Source of the DNA: Deltaproteobacteria bacterium | GTDB lineage: Bacteria > Desulfobacterota > Desulfuromonadia > Geobacterales > Geobacteraceae | Length of the DNA stretch: 64,000 nucleotides | Direction: 5' to 3' | Assembly: GCA_021848385.1 (NCBI GenBank) | Contig: JAJZUQ010000003.1 | Location: 1-64,000 of the forward strand | Made by a program: the position numbers and the translations under genes | The notes under the pieces: model-generated | What the model saw: only the letters and a program-made list of their open reading frames with translations | Told to the model about the DNA's origin: nothing | The model's database searches: none | Shown here: positions 1 to 41,124 of the stretch, in pieces | How the letters are laid out: each line of letters opens with the position of its first letter | Numbering within the stretch: position 1 is the stretch's first letter

Positions 1-126
1 GCCGACAACGGCGGGTTGGAAGAAAGCGCATGCTTTGTAGTGAAGAACATCGGAAAGCCGTGTGCGGGAAAACCGCACGCACGGTTTGATGAGGGGGGGC
101 AGGGTGAAACCTGTTCCCTACTCTAC
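1..126 (+). mobile_element. 3' end of a group IIC intron (domains V and VI)
   Basis: Positions 55-87 fold as a catalytic domain V: a 7-bp lower stem (55-61 with 81-87), a small bulge, a 6-bp upper stem (62-67 with 73-78) and a GAAAA loop. Domain VI follows at about 91-126, ending in the CCTACTCTAC tail typical of class C introns, with A120 the likely branch point. The intron would end near 126/127. Its 5' part and any maturase lie upstream of the window. No intron-encoded protein is visible here. Confidence 0.85.
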
Positions 127-35599: not shown

Positions 35600-35848
35600 T
35601 CATGCTCCCGTGCTGCCAAATAGCCTGGTGCGAATGGCCGGAATTATGTCCAGGGGTTCAGGCCGCTTCCCTTGTTCAATCCGGGAAAAAATCATGTCGT
35701 TATCCAGATAGACGACGAATTCGCCCCAAGGGGCATCCTTGTCGAGTGTCACCAAAAGATCCCATCCTGTTTCTTTGATCAGGCGAGCCAGACCGGCTGC
35801 CACCGAATTCTGGCTTCAGGTGGGGTAGTAGTGGATTCGCACCTTCAT
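35600..35848 (-). CDS. SelW/Rdx-family candidate selenoprotein (in-frame TGA at Sec11)
   Basis: 82 aa if TGA 35818-35816 is read as selenocysteine. The ATG at 35848 has GAGGAG 5 nt upstream, and the frame MKVRIHYYPT-U-SQNSVAAGLARL runs on to 35600. The body (ETGWDLLVTLDKDAPWGEFVVYLDND..) matches the SelT/SelW/SelH (Rdx) thioredoxin-like family, and U falls where the family has the second residue of CxxU. The usual first Cys is Tyr here (YPTU). A hairpin begins directly after the TGA. Without readthrough only a GTG-start fragment from 35803 would be made. It is the last gene of the Mrp/NifX cluster. Confidence 0.75.
35786..35815 (-). promoter_or_regulatory. Bacterial SECIS-like hairpin after the TGA codon
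   Basis: Immediately 3' of the TGA, AGCCAGA (35815-35809) pairs with TCTGGCT (35792-35786). An AT bulge containing a U follows, then TCGG/CCGG (35806-35803 with 35796-35793) and the loop UGGCAG. A bulged U below a short upper stem with G in the apical loop fits bacterial SECIS rules. Confidence 0.65.
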
Positions 35849-35866
35849 TCTATCTCCTCTATGGTT

Positions 35867-35976: not shown

Positions 35977-36873
35977 TCAGCCTTCATTCGCCGAAAGATT
36001 GCCGGGGTTACACCTGGCGGTGACGGTTGTAACGATCTCGCCGAAGGCCCTGGCAGTTGGAGACGCGCTCTGATGCTCCACAAACGGCTCACCATCGTCA
36101 GCGGCGCTGACCATGGCCGGGTCAAGCGGAATCCTCCCCAGAAACGGCACATGCATCTCATCGGCCATGGTCCTGCCGCCGCCACTCTTGAAGATGTCGA
36201 CTCCCTCGCCGCAGTGGGGGCAGACGAAACCGCTCATGTTCTCCACAACACCGATTACCGGCAGCTTTACCTGCCGGCAGAAGGTGACCGATTTGCGCAC
36301 GTCCGTGAGAGCCACATCCTGGGGAGTGGTTACGATAATGGCGCCATCGGCACCCTCCAGGAGCTGGATTACCGAAAGAGGTTCGTCGCCGGTCCCCGGT
36401 GGGCAGTCGACAATCAGGTAGTCAAGATTTCCCCACTCGACAGCTGTCAGGAGTTGTTTGATGAAACCATGCTTGGCCGGGCCGCGCCAGATAACCGCTT
36501 CGTCCTGGTCCTTCAGGAACAATCCAACCGACATGACTTTGAGGTTTGCGTTATAGGCGACCGGTGCGATGCGGTTAGTGCCTGATGGGGTAAACTGACC
36601 ATCGATGCCAAGGAGCGTCGGAATGCTCGGCCCGTGCAGGTCCACATCGAGAAGTCCGGTCTTACATCCCTGGAGCGAGAGGGCTACCGCCAGATTGGCT
36701 GCCACGGAACTCTTCCCCACTCCTCCCTTGCCGGAGAGGACCACAATCTTCTTTCCGATCCCGAACAGGTTCTCCTGCAAGTCCAGCTGATCCTTTAATT
36801 CCTGAAGACGTCTCGTCTCTTCTCCGCCGCAGGAAGCTCCTTTGGCGTTGTTATGATGATGTTCGCTGCTCAC
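35977..36873 (-). CDS. mrp: Mrp/NBP35-family P-loop ATPase
   Basis: About 298 aa from GTG 36873, which has AGGAGG upstream. The upstream gene ends at 36851, so the two overlap by 23 nt. The deviant Walker A SGKGGVGKSSVAANLA is near residue 46, with DVDLHGPSIP (switch I/A' motif), DYLIVDCPPGTGDEP (Walker B) and CPHCGEG, the CxxC that binds a bridging [4Fe-4S] cluster in the dimer. An N-terminal HHHNN..SCGG segment is a possible extra metal site. It acts as a Fe-S carrier or scaffold and is coupled here to a NifX/ORP-family protein. Confidence 0.93.
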   Translation of the reverse strand: MSSEHHHNNAKGASCGGEETRRLQELKDQLDLQENLFGIGKKIVVLSGKGGVGKSSVAANLAVALSLQGCKTGLLDVDLHGPSIPTLLGIDGQFTPSGTNRIAPVAYNANLKVMSVGLFLKDQDEAVIWRGPAKHGFIKQLLTAVEWGNLDYLIVDCPPGTGDEPLSVIQLLEGADGAIIVTTPQDVALTDVRKSVTFCRQVKLPVIGVVENMSGFVCPHCGEGVDIFKSGGGRTMADEMHVPFLGRIPLDPAMVSAADDGEPFVEHQSASPTARAFGEIVTTVTARCNPGNLSANEG

Positions 36874-37291
36874 GTATTCTTCCTCCTGTTGTTGTGATGA
36901 TAGGGGTCCGCTTTCTTCCCCGAGCAAGTTTGTGCTTTTCAGGACAAGCCATTCTGCAGGCGCAACCGGCCATCGCAAAACCGCCTTCAATAAGCCTGCC
37001 GGCCAGACAGGCCTGAAGAACCTCCCGAACATCCCCGGCAATAAACGGATAGACCCTGATACCAGCGTGAGTTGCTGTTGAAAGGGCGTCTCTGGATATT
37101 GCACCGCAGATCAGAACCTCTGTTCCCGCTTCAAGCAGGCTGGCCACCTTCTCCGCTGCGCAGCCATTCGGCAATAACAGTTGCTTCTCCGAGCAAACCC
37201 TTTCGCCTTCAGACACGTACAGCAGTGCTTTTCCGGTTACGTCAAACACCGGTGACACCCTGTTATTCCATATTGTGATAGCTGTTTTCAT
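36851..37291 (-). CDS. NifX/ORP-family protein 1 (dinitrogenase FeMo-cofactor domain)
   Basis: 146 aa from the ATG at 37291, GGAGCGGCC before it. The fold is that of NifX/NifB C-terminal and the Desulfovibrio orange protein: NRVSPVFDVTGKALLYV at the N-terminus, EVLICGAISRDALSTA, then the basic Cys-bearing tail GCACRMACPEKHK. Such proteins bind metal clusters (FeMo-co, Mo-Cu-S). It is driven from a near-consensus sigma-54 promoter at 37325-37340 and translationally coupled to mrp. Confidence 0.87.
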   Translation of the reverse strand: MKTAITIWNNRVSPVFDVTGKALLYVSEGERVCSEKQLLLPNGCAAEKVASLLEAGTEVLICGAISRDALSTATHAGIRVYPFIAGDVREVLQACLAGRLIEGGFAMAGCACRMACPEKHKLARGRKRTPIITTTGGRIREQRTSS

Positions 37292-37324
37292 GGCCGCTCC
37301 GACGTTGCTTCCTGCCATATACGT

Positions 37325-37340
37325 AGCAACAGCCGGGCCA
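37325..37340 (-). promoter_or_regulatory. Sigma-54 (-24/-12) promoter of the nifX1-mrp unit
   Basis: On the minus strand TGGCCCGGCTGTTGCT closely matches TGGCACGNNNNTTGCW, with exactly 10 nt between the GG and GC pairs. The start site would be about 24 nt before the nifX1 ATG. A sigma-54 activator gene lies directly upstream. Confidence 0.72.
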
Positions 37341-37473
37341 GATATGGCGCATGCAACGACATCTGCCATAACATGCCATTTTTCAGTGGATTATAAAATA
37401 GTATGCCGGATCATTTATGGAGATAGGGTTGCAGTTATGCGACCATGTGGGGGAGAGGAACGTAGCTCTGACG

Positions 37474-38859
37474 CTACGATCTGGGGTCTTTTGCGGAACG
37501 CCCGTTCTGTTCGGGCAGGGGGAGGTCAAGAGTTTTCATCTTCCGGTAGAGTGTGGTCCTGTGGATGCCCAGTTCACGGGCTGTGGCAGCACGGTTGAAG
37601 TGGTTTCTCTTCAGCGCGGCACGTATGCTCTGTTCTTCTGCACTGCGAATCGCTGCTTCCATGCGACCGGAATCAACATGAACCGGGCTGGTTCCGGTCA
37701 GTTGAACAGGCAAATGCTCCTGCCCGATCAATTTTGACCTGCACAGCACAAATGCCCGCTCAACCACATTCTCCAGCTCACGGACATTGCCGGGCCAGTC
37801 ATGCGCCATCAGCAGAGAATAGGCGCCAGCGGCGAATCCGCTGACATTTTTATGCTGGCTGCGGTTGAAATGTTCGATGAAATGCTCCACCAGAAGCGGA
37901 ATATCTTCCTTGCGCTTGCGCAGTGGAGGAATTTCGAGTGAAATGACATTGATGCGGTAGTAAAGATCCTGACGAAATGCGCCATTTTTAACCATTTCGA
38001 CCAGATTGCGGTTGGTGGCTACAATAATACGGGCGGAGCTCTTTTCGCTGTGAGTTGACCCAAGCGGCTCGTAGGTTTGTTCCTGGAGTACTCGCAGAAG
38101 CCTTACCTGCAAGGCCGGGGTGATTTCGCCGATTTCATCCAGAAAGAGTGTTCCCCCCTGGGCAAGGGCAAAACGCCCTGGTTTGTCCCGATTGGCACCG
38201 GTAAAAGCGCCTTTCTTGTATCCGAACAACTCGGACTCAAGCAGAGTATCGGGCAATGCACCACAGTTGACCGCCACAAAAGGTTTTTGCGAACGCGGGC
38301 CCATGCCGTGAATCTCCCGGGCAAGAAGTTCCTTGCCGGTTCCTGTTTCGCCTTGTATGAGCACGGTGGACGAACTTGCCGCCAAAGAGGGCATCATATC
38401 AAAAACCGGTCTCATGGCCTGGCTGTGGCTGACAAGGTTGCCGATCCGGAAACGCCCTGCCAGTTCTTTTTGAAGAGCGGCAATTTCACTTACATCCCGG
38501 AAGGTCTCGGCGCCACCGATGACCTCCCCGTCTCCGTCACGCAGAACGGCGGTAGAAACAGTGACGGGAATACGGTCCCCCTCGGCATCGATGATATACC
38601 CGGACTTGTTGATGACCGGTTTTCCGTTCTTCAGCGTCAGATGCAGGGCACATTCAGCTTCGCACATGCTTGATTTGAACACCTCGGAACAAAAGCGCCC
38701 CAACGCTTCTTCACGTGGTATGCCGGTTATTTCTTCCGCAGCCCGGTTGAAAGAGGTGACGCGCCAGTTCAGGTCAACCGTGAACACGCCGTCGGAGATA
38801 CTCTCCAGGATAGTGTCGGTTGTGGCTAAAAAAACAGTATCACCATCTTTGTCAACCAT
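37474..38859 (-). CDS. Sigma-54-dependent activator with Cys-bearing PAS domain
   Basis: 461 aa from the ATG at 38859 (AAAGGATG upstream). The N-terminal PAS domain contains FCSEVFKSSMCEAECAL, a cysteine cluster suited to sensing redox or metal. The AAA+ domain has Walker A GETGTGKELLAREIH, the sigma-54 contact loop ELFGYKKGAFTGA and LFLDEIGE. The Fis-type HTH is at the C-terminus (NRAATARELGIHRTTLYRKM). It has no phosphoreceiver domain. By analogy with DVU2106 it probably activates the adjacent -24/-12 promoter. Confidence 0.92.
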   Translation of the reverse strand: MVDKDGDTVFLATTDTILESISDGVFTVDLNWRVTSFNRAAEEITGIPREEALGRFCSEVFKSSMCEAECALHLTLKNGKPVINKSGYIIDAEGDRIPVTVSTAVLRDGDGEVIGGAETFRDVSEIAALQKELAGRFRIGNLVSHSQAMRPVFDMMPSLAASSSTVLIQGETGTGKELLAREIHGMGPRSQKPFVAVNCGALPDTLLESELFGYKKGAFTGANRDKPGRFALAQGGTLFLDEIGEITPALQVRLLRVLQEQTYEPLGSTHSEKSSARIIVATNRNLVEMVKNGAFRQDLYYRINVISLEIPPLRKRKEDIPLLVEHFIEHFNRSQHKNVSGFAAGAYSLLMAHDWPGNVRELENVVERAFVLCRSKLIGQEHLPVQLTGTSPVHVDSGRMEAAIRSAEEQSIRAALKRNHFNRAATARELGIHRTTLYRKMKTLDLPLPEQNGRSAKDPRS

Positions 38860-38939
38860 TGAACATCCTTTGATCAGCTGACACATGCCTCTTGATAGAA
38901 ACTTCAGGACAGAAGATCATAAGAGATCGTGACGGTATT

Positions 38940-39578
38940 TCATTTCTGGCAAGACACCAATTTGCTTTTACCGCTCCGTGAGTGGCTCAACGTGACACTG
39001 GAAAATACTTTTTTAAAAGGCTCCACCCCAGCTTTGAGAAACTCGCGGGCGTCATCTGAGCCCATGGAAAACATCCTTACGTAAAAAAGTAACTTAACGA
39101 CCGGGTGCCGGGGGATTTCGTGTTCCATGAGCAGCACGTAGCCATCGGGGCGCACCACGCGTTTCATTTCCCGCAAGGCCTTTTCCCGTGTTTCTCCCTT
39201 CAATTCATAGAGCGCATGGGAACAGGTCACAACGTCAAAACTGTTTTCGTCGAAGTTGAGTGCCGCCGCATCTCCTTCAATAAACATCACCTGGCCGCTG
39301 ACGTCTTTCTCCCGTGCCTTGCGCAACATGCCGGGAGAAAAGTCATACCCTATGGCCACTGATTCCGGGTAGCGCTCTTTAAAGGCTAGGATAACCGATC
39401 CCGTACCGCAACAGATGTCCAGAATCCTGGGCATCGGTTTCCCCTCCAGGTGGGCCGCATTGACCAGTAAATTACGGGTATCGTCTTCATTCTGGCGAGA
39501 ATGAAGCCGGATAAAAGCATCGTAAAAAGGGGAGAAGATATCATAGTACCTGCGCCGTCCCGTTCTTAACTGCGTCAT
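38940..39578 (-). CDS. Class I SAM-dependent methyltransferase (UbiE-like)
   Basis: 212 aa from the ATG at 39578 (AAAGG 8-9 nt upstream; further upstream starts lack a ribosome-binding site). SAM motif I is ILDICCGTGSV, followed by IGYDFSPGMLRKARE, FIEGDAAALNFDENSFDVV (motif II) and MKRVVRPDGYVLLMEHE. The substrate is unknown. Lying between an IscU-type scaffold and the sigma-54 regulator, it may modify a small molecule or a protein of the same cofactor pathway, but that is only context. Confidence 0.85.
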   Translation of the reverse strand: MTQLRTGRRRYYDIFSPFYDAFIRLHSRQNEDDTRNLLVNAAHLEGKPMPRILDICCGTGSVILAFKERYPESVAIGYDFSPGMLRKAREKDVSGQVMFIEGDAAALNFDENSFDVVTCSHALYELKGETREKALREMKRVVRPDGYVLLMEHEIPRHPVVKLLFYVRMFSMGSDDAREFLKAGVEPFKKVFSSVTLSHSRSGKSKLVSCQK

Positions 39579-39637
39579 ACAAGAACCTTTCTCTGATGAG
39601 GTGAAAACCCCGGACTCCACCAACAGTTCGGCACGTT

Positions 39638-39736
39638 TCACCGTTGACAGGTGGGCTTGGGCGCAGGTTTCAGAATGACAGTGTTGCCGGCGGCAAGGGG
39701 AGGGGCAACCTTGTGCGCGATGAGATCGAGGGGGCT
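39638..39736 (-). pseudogene. Aldehyde dehydrogenase fragment
   Basis: 33 codons between an upstream stop (39737-39739) and TGA 39640-39638 read SPLDLIAHKVAPPLAAGNTV then ILKPAPKP, the conserved N-terminal aldehyde-dehydrogenase segment (FPLNL..HKVAPALAAGN..VLKPA). Nothing else of the gene remains. It lies between the IscU and methyltransferase genes. Confidence 0.7.
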
Positions 39737-39762
39737 TTAAGGCTGACGTCCCGGAACGTGCT

Positions 39763-40161
39763 TCAACTCACCGGCATGGTCTTTCCTGCGATGGTTGACC
39801 GGTATTGCGCTACCGCCGCATGCAGGGCGGAAGCGGCCATGTTCGAGCAGTGCATTTTTTCTTCCGGCAGGCCGTCCAGTGCAGTGGCTATTTTTTGATC
39901 GTCGAGGGTGAGAACTTCGTCGAGGGTCTTGCCCATGACCAGTTCCGTAGCGATCGAAGATGTTGCTATGGCTGCGCCACACCCTTTGATGAGAAACTTG
40001 ATATCGCGAATGACTTCATTCTCGATCTTGATAAAAAAGACGAGGGCGTCACCGCAGCTCGGGTCGCCCGCCTGCACCACCACGTTGGCATCGTCCAGAG
40101 ATCCCACGTTGCGCGGGTTGTGGACATGATCCACTACCTTTGCAGAATACGGCTCACTCAT
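39763..40161 (-). CDS. IscU/NifU-type Fe-S scaffold
   Basis: 132 aa from the ATG at 40161 (AAAGGAATCTCTCG upstream), which overlaps the end of the DUF134 gene by 8 nt. It has the three scaffold cysteines in DPSCGD, KGCGAAIA and HCSNMA. The VVDHVHNPRNVG N-terminus is typical of IscU/NifU-N. No IscS-type desulfurase is adjacent, so it probably draws sulfur from the housekeeping system. Its company (NifX, Mrp, UPF0251) suggests a dedicated cluster-assembly line. Confidence 0.9.
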   Translation of the reverse strand: MSEPYSAKVVDHVHNPRNVGSLDDANVVVQAGDPSCGDALVFFIKIENEVIRDIKFLIKGCGAAIATSSIATELVMGKTLDEVLTLDDQKIATALDGLPEEKMHCSNMAASALHAAVAQYRSTIAGKTMPVS

Positions 40162-40498
40162 CGAGAGATTCCTTTCGTACACACAGGCGATCTTCATCTG
40201 CTTTCCCTGTCACGTTGCCGGAGATCGCCAGCGCTTTCTGACCGACAAGCGCCTGTGCCACCTTGCTGCGGGCGCTTGCCAGCAGTCGCTGGACCGTGCC
40301 GCGTGAAACGCCCATGCAGACACCCGCTTCTTCCTGGGTTTTCCCTTCTCCATCACACAGATGCAGGGCCTCCAGTTCATCGTGGGCAAGCTGGATGATC
40401 TCCATCTCAACGAGCGGGGTCCCGGCCGGCTTGAAGACCGCTGCGTATCCTGCCCGATGGGGGCAGGTGCAGTTTCTCGGTTTACGTGGTCGCGGCAT
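40154..40498 (-). CDS. UPF0251/DUF134 HTH regulator
   Basis: 114 aa: MPRPRKPRNCTCPH opening, then LVEMEIIQLAHDELEALHLCD and the sigma-70 region-4-like helix-turn-helix KTQEEAGVCMGVSRGTVQRL. The CTCPH motif and other Cys suggest metal or Fe-S sensing. Genes of this family regularly neighbour NifX/ORP-family genes. It lies 2 bp after the nifX2 stop and overlaps the iscU-like start. Confidence 0.88.
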   Translation of the reverse strand: MPRPRKPRNCTCPHRAGYAAVFKPAGTPLVEMEIIQLAHDELEALHLCDGEGKTQEEAGVCMGVSRGTVQRLLASARSKVAQALVGQKALAISGNVTGKADEDRLCVRKESLDE

Positions 40499-40500
40499 GG

Positions 40501-40881
40501 CTAGTGGGAGCAGCCATGGCTGTGACCGTGGCCGCCGCAGGTGTGGCCCGGCATATATTCCGGCAGGCCGTTTGCCCTGAAGAGCGCAATGTTGTCAGCA
40601 ATGGTTCCATCCTGTGCCTGAAAAACCCGCATCCCGGCAGCGTTCAGTTTGTAGAGCGCTCCACCGCCAATGCCGCCGACCACGATTGCATCCACCTGGT
40701 GGCCGCCAAGCCCTGCGACCGGATTGCAGGCTCCATGCTCATGGATTCGGTCGCTATTGCTGATCGCCGTTACCTCGCTGGTGGTAATGTCTACCACGAC
40801 AAACGCCGGTGCAGAGCCAAAATGCCCATACACCTGACTCTCCAACCCTTGATTTACCTGAACCGGAAAACAGACTTTCAT
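40501..40881 (-). CDS. NifX/ORP-family protein 2 with His-rich tail
   Basis: 126 aa from the ATG at 40881 (GGGAGG 6 nt upstream). It begins MKVCFPVQVNQGLESQVYGHFGSAP, the classic start of dinitrogenase FeMo-cofactor family proteins of the MTH1175/ORP type. DAIVVGGIGGGALYKLNAAGMRVF is the second conserved block. The C-terminus GHTCGGHGHSHGCSH is a metal-binding His/Cys tail. First gene of an operon with UPF0251 and the IscU-type gene. Confidence 0.9.
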   Translation of the reverse strand: MKVCFPVQVNQGLESQVYGHFGSAPAFVVVDITTSEVTAISNSDRIHEHGACNPVAGLGGHQVDAIVVGGIGGGALYKLNAAGMRVFQAQDGTIADNIALFRANGLPEYMPGHTCGGHGHSHGCSH

Positions 40882-40901
40882 TGTGTACCTCCCGTTAATA
40901 A

Positions 40902-40965
40902 TGTGTCTATGCACAAAATAACATTCATTATTGTGAATGTCAACACGATGTCGTGCATAAGCACA
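40902..40965 (-). promoter_or_regulatory. Promoter with three inverted-repeat operators upstream of nifX2
   Basis: Minus-strand TTGACA (40943-40938) and TATTTT (40920-40915) are 17 bp apart. The spacer holds most of the palindrome ACATTCA-N6-TGAATGT (40921-40940). TGTGTCTATGCACA (40902-40915) and CGTGCATAAGCACA (40952-40965), related near-palindromes, flank it with centres 50 bp apart. Confidence 0.55.
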
Positions 40966-41124
40966 AAACAGGGTAATCGTGTGGTCTTTATCGAGGTGGC
41001 AAGGCAGGTAGCCGGTAGTGCACTGGCACAAAGGCGGGACGGGGATCTCTTTCCACATACAGGTCAGGGAAAACAGTGCCGGTTTTGCCCTCTTCAATAA
41101 GATGGGCAACTGCCAAATAGAGGG

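Follow-up and report, generated by a model that had tools for sequence, protein, structure and literature searches.

Gene and reading frame

The window analysed here, a 64,000-nucleotide stretch of DNA from a bacterium belonging to the same family as Geomonas and Geomesophilobacter, carries a short SelW-like open reading frame on its minus strand (35848 to 35600); translation of both strands showed that the plus strand gives a nonsense frame in this interval. The reverse complement of 35600-35848 translates to MKVRIHYYPTU-SQNSVAAGLARLIKETGWDLLVTLDKDAPWGEFVVYLDNDMIFSRIEQGKRPEPLDIIPAIRTRLFGSTGA-stop, corresponding to 82 codons between an ATG at 35848 and a TGA stop at 35602-35600. A further TGA is found in frame at codon 11 (35818-35816), followed by 71 codons, and a Shine-Dalgarno sequence (GAGGAG, 35859-35854) is located 5 nt 5' of the ATG. 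An earlier note on this DNA had described the same start and ribosome-binding site, as well as a frame that runs into a TGA and continues for 71 codons; the minus-strand translation bore out both points. Standard ORF calling, in turn, reported only a 67-aa fragment with a GTG start after the TGA (35600-35803). The features of the locus are as follows.

35854..35859, minus strand: Shine-Dalgarno sequence GAGGAG (sequence)
35603..35848, minus strand: predicted SelW-like (Rdx) selenoprotein gene, 82 codons, Sec codon 11, stop at 35602-35600 (translation, Shine-Dalgarno sequence, Pfam match, homologues)
35825..35827, minus strand: codon 8, TAC (Tyr), with TGC/TGT (Cys) in relatives (comparison with relatives)
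35816..35818, minus strand: in-frame TGA, putative Sec codon 11, motif Y-P-T-U (translation and relatives)
35786..35815, minus strand: first-described hairpin of 7+4 bp, lowest-energy fold in isolation, not conserved, competing with the SECIS
35782..35801, minus strand: assigned SECIS stem-loop GGCAGCC-GGUCU-GGCUCGCC, 4 bp + bulged C + 3 bp, -10.8 kcal/mol (conservation, covariation)
35790..35794, minus strand: apical loop GGUCU of the assigned SECIS (fold and alignment)

Family assignment and selenocysteine machinery

With C in place of U, the protein matched the Pfam family PF10262 (Rdx) with 35.8 bits (curated cut-off 22.6, E 9e-9). Two NCBI SelT/W/H models also matched, each under its own cut-off; for the narrower model TIGR02174 the score was 28.1 bits (cut-off 34.2). 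A whole-genome profile search returned one sole Rdx match, exactly the codon-11-TGA frame, spanning one internal TGA; no second Rdx gene able to compensate was found in the genome by this search. In the AlphaFold model (pLDDT 92.4), strands and helices follow each other as in Rdx proteins, and residue 11 sits where helix 1 begins. The thioredoxin-like beta-alpha-beta-beta-beta-alpha fold of the Rdx family was also reflected in structure comparison, where the top PDB matches were the SelW-related proteins 2p0g, 2obk and 3dex together with mouse SelW (2npb). The window protein is, as judged from profile and model, a member of the Rdx/SelW-like family with the thioredoxin-like Rdx fold. Together with the TGA codon of the homologues (see below), these results agree with the proposal of the earlier note that a SelW/Rdx protein is encoded here with a TGA at the redox position.

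The residues typical of the family are largely retained. Of 19 columns with 90% conservation or more across 24 relatives, 16 were kept, the changes being C8Y, A45V and R61K, two of which are conservative substitutions. Comparison with Geomesophilobacter gave dN 0.33, dS 2.1 and a dN/dS of about 0.15, indicating purifying selection, with the reservation that dS is saturated and a recent relaxation of selection is therefore not visible.

The earlier note had regarded a genome devoid of sel genes as fatal to the selenoprotein assignment, yet all four were found. The tRNA-Sec (selC) scored 76 bits (gathering score 47) and was also named as such by ARAGORN; SelB reached 369 bits against a cut-off of 242, SelA 613 bits and SelD 360 bits. 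SelD itself contains one TGA. With selA, selB, selC and selD all present, the cell is equipped to make Sec proteins.

Homologues and genomic distribution

About 95 homologues, in many genera across the order, class and phylum, share a TGA at the codon equivalent to codon 11 of the window gene. Together with the sel genes, this conservation makes the case for a bacterial selenoprotein very strong; homologues with a sense codon, which the earlier note had considered as a potential objection, are rare, since nearly all have TGA. At the order level, relatives occurred in 22/141 genomes, nearly all with one internal TGA. Among the relatives found, identity to the window protein was highest for those from Geomesophilobacter sediminis (58%) and from three Geomonas species (47-51%). 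The window protein alone, used as query against the named genomes, gave no matches, and a profile of four sequences recovered four Geomonas/Geomesophilobacter loci.

The gene is missing from the three same-genus genomes examined and shares no synteny with the tested relatives, their gene neighbourhoods being different; it is thus patchy in its distribution, through loss or transfer. In a genome of the same family (g6), L177 (G027:C1:2107420-2107900) is a possible decayed relict, with a weak match and no recognisable motif.

The genes next to the window gene, about 80-130 nt away, encode an Mrp/ParA-type ATPase (upstream) and a small protein without a Pfam match (downstream). Further upstream, the minus-strand region 35977-41109 comprises genes for an Mrp/NBP35-type ATPase, two Nitro_FeMo-Co domain proteins, a NifU N-terminal scaffold protein, a methyltransferase and a PAS/sigma-54 regulator, and looks like a group for Fe-S or metal cluster assembly and its regulation. 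We dropped the neighbourhood as a functional clue, given that synteny with the tested relatives is lacking and the flanking genes give no clear link. At the extreme edge of the window, positions 53-126 (plus strand) matched the group II intron family RF00029 with 58.4 bits.

A conserved GGUCU stem-loop downstream of the UGA

A stem-loop begins about 15 nt downstream of the UGA and presents its GGUCU loop 21 nt after it. In the alignment, 97.2% of its cells were paired, and covariation amounted to 0.642, whereas shuffles gave 0.111 and slid controls did not exceed 0.203; the aligned relatives are not independent of each other, and the slid controls preserve this relatedness. Position pairs 24-30 and 21-33 were paired in 95/95 and 93/95 sequences, respectively, by C-G, G-C, A-U and U-A pairs. 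As these pairs join the third positions of two codons, they are not explicable by protein constraint. Presumably, the GGUCU loop is similar to the one in the SECIS of E. coli fdhF, which has been studied in detail. No Rfam family reached its gathering threshold over the element of the window gene. This element fits the published bacterial SECIS model, which places the loop 16-37 nt after the UGA (PMC13188914), by virtue of a 5-nt loop starting with G, a distance of 21 nt and a folding energy of -10.8 kcal/mol; 90/96 family members pass the same test. In Geomonas silvestris and Geomonas limicola (L013 and L014), an inserted codon between UGA and SECIS increases the distance of the loop to 24 nt, showing that the spacing tolerates one codon. 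On this comparative evidence we assigned the GGUCU stem-loop as the conserved SECIS of the gene, a clear case of a bacterial SECIS revealed by synonymous-site covariation and not by the minimum-energy fold.

The minimum-energy fold is a different structure. The hairpin proposed as SECIS in the earlier note pairs AGCCAGA with UCUGGCU and UCGG with CCGG (7+4 bp). It can indeed form, and in the window RNA alone it is the more stable fold (-16.8 vs -10.8 kcal/mol). Its role as SECIS did not hold up: the 7-bp stem was formed in 0/92 relatives, pairing in a 29-sequence alignment was the same as in shuffles (51.7% vs 50.8% of cells) without covariation, and, with 13-14 nt between the UGA and the start of its loop, the hairpin falls short of the range of 16-37 nt (PMC13188914). 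The lack of conservation, which the earlier note had named as an argument against its proposal, thus applies to this hairpin only, whereas the GGUCU stem-loop is conserved, and we ruled out the former as SECIS. That it should nevertheless be the working element in the window species, as its lower free energy in isolation might suggest, is scarcely credible, because its 5' arm lies directly after the UGA within the ribosome footprint and the GGUCU element is intact in the window. A ribosome positioned on the UGA would probably cover this arm and leave the SECIS free to form. When folding was started from position 16 after the UGA, as may happen while a ribosome occupies the codon, the SECIS was the predicted fold; from positions 10-14, a smaller competing hairpin was still preferred.

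Loss of the partner cysteine

In members of the family, strand 1 is followed by a CxxU or CxxC motif, and the Cys and Sec of CxxU can join in an internal selenenylsulfide. The window protein has YPTU at this place, with Sec retained and Cys gone, as the earlier note had pointed out for the resolving Cys; in this assembly the protein has no Cys at any other position either. A survey of about 400 genomes of the phylum and 277 of the class yielded 96 CxxU, 4 CxxC and 1 CxxG (CGSG) motifs, so that Cys is present in every relative whose motif could be read, about 101 in all (two further fragments had no readable motif); the window was the only YxxU. One additional CxxU relative was found after the main survey. 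Loss of Cys with Sec kept was found in no relative examined here, and in tables from the searchable open-access subset of the literature, CxxU is the sole motif given for SelW-like proteins (PMC1088965, PMC13188914). The CGSG protein (L162, G457:C134:8780-9250) shows the reverse of the change in the window, Sec being replaced by Gly with Cys retained, and next to its gene the genome carries a CxxU copy. Since the ancestry is clear from the remaining protein, we filed the window protein as a divergent Rdx variant and not as a typical CxxU member.

Interpretation of the UGA and of the tyrosine

If the UGA were a true stop, the gene would be a 67-codon ORF starting from the downstream GTG, as standard ORF calling has it, and no selenoprotein would be made. 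Such a gene would, however, start downstream of the Shine-Dalgarno site, the redox motif and the conserved first beta-strand, and it would account neither for a TGA conserved in about 95 homologues nor for a SECIS covarying at synonymous positions, nor for the full Sec machinery of the genome. We consider this reading to have virtually no chance of being correct; the conserved TGA, the SECIS and the signature of selection rule out a true stop and an old pseudogene alike.

The tyrosine deserves more caution. The change from Cys to Tyr at codon 8 is a one-base change (one transition) seen in one draft genome of 122 contigs, and both a sequence error and early decay have to be considered. An ordinary CxxU protein disguised by a base-calling or assembly error would be in line with the Cys found in all about 101 readable relatives, but the frame, start, Shine-Dalgarno site and SECIS are intact and the gene shows no other sign of error; we regard this explanation as improbable. 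We hold it similarly unlikely that the gene has just begun to decay, with the active-site Cys already lost and the remainder still in place. The otherwise invariant Cys, the absence from the three same-genus genomes, the patchy occurrence in the family and the possible relict in G027 would suit such a scenario, while the retained Sec codon and SECIS, the 16/19 conserved columns and the low dN/dS (albeit with saturated dS) speak against it.

We thus favour, as the probable explanation, a functional SelW-like (Rdx) selenoprotein gene. SelB and tRNA-Sec would read UGA codon 11 as Sec, aided by the downstream GGUCU stem-loop. Placed where helix 1 begins, the Sec would then react alone, no internal selenenylsulfide being possible; with Cys changed to Tyr and no other Cys in the protein, its resolution would depend entirely on an outside thiol, either one of low molecular weight or one on a partner protein, as is the case for 1-Cys redox proteins. 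From its sequence, the window protein is most likely a single-selenol variant of this kind. That it is a natural Cys-free Rdx protein with Sec as the only redox residue, and hence the natural equivalent of a SelW mutant that lacks the resolving cysteine and works through a thiol from outside, has in our view an even chance. Such a protein, if real, would show that a selenol alone can suffice, and might serve as a trap for the partner thiol or protein.

Comparison with known selenoproteins

SelW-like proteins are common in bacteria. In SELENOW, Cys and Sec of the CXXU motif are reported to be linked by an internal selenylsulfide (PMC8508763), and an interaction of SelW with glutathione has been reported (PMC1088965). 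Sec without a CxxU or UxxC partner, as in the window protein, occurs for instance in the TxxU peroxiredoxin and GxxU families (PMC13188914), but these are unrelated to it and their chemistry is not directly transferable. The SelW-like proteins of Geomesophilobacter sediminis and Geomonas have CPTU or CN[IL]U motifs with the same TGA and the same GGUCU loop as the window gene; they retain the Cys where the window has Tyr, and lie in unlike gene neighbourhoods. More generally, bacterial SelW-like selenoproteins (PF10262; PMC1088965, PMC1794560), one of which was described from Geobacter sulfurreducens in 2006 (PMC1794560), share with the window protein the length, fold, Sec position and TGA codon, as well as a GGUCU/RGUCU-type SECIS at the same spacing. 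They are, however, listed as CxxU proteins (PMC13188914), whereas in the window the first Cys is replaced by Tyr and the whole protein is free of Cys. Family, Sec position and SECIS type are thus already known; the loss of Cys with Sec kept is what is unusual.
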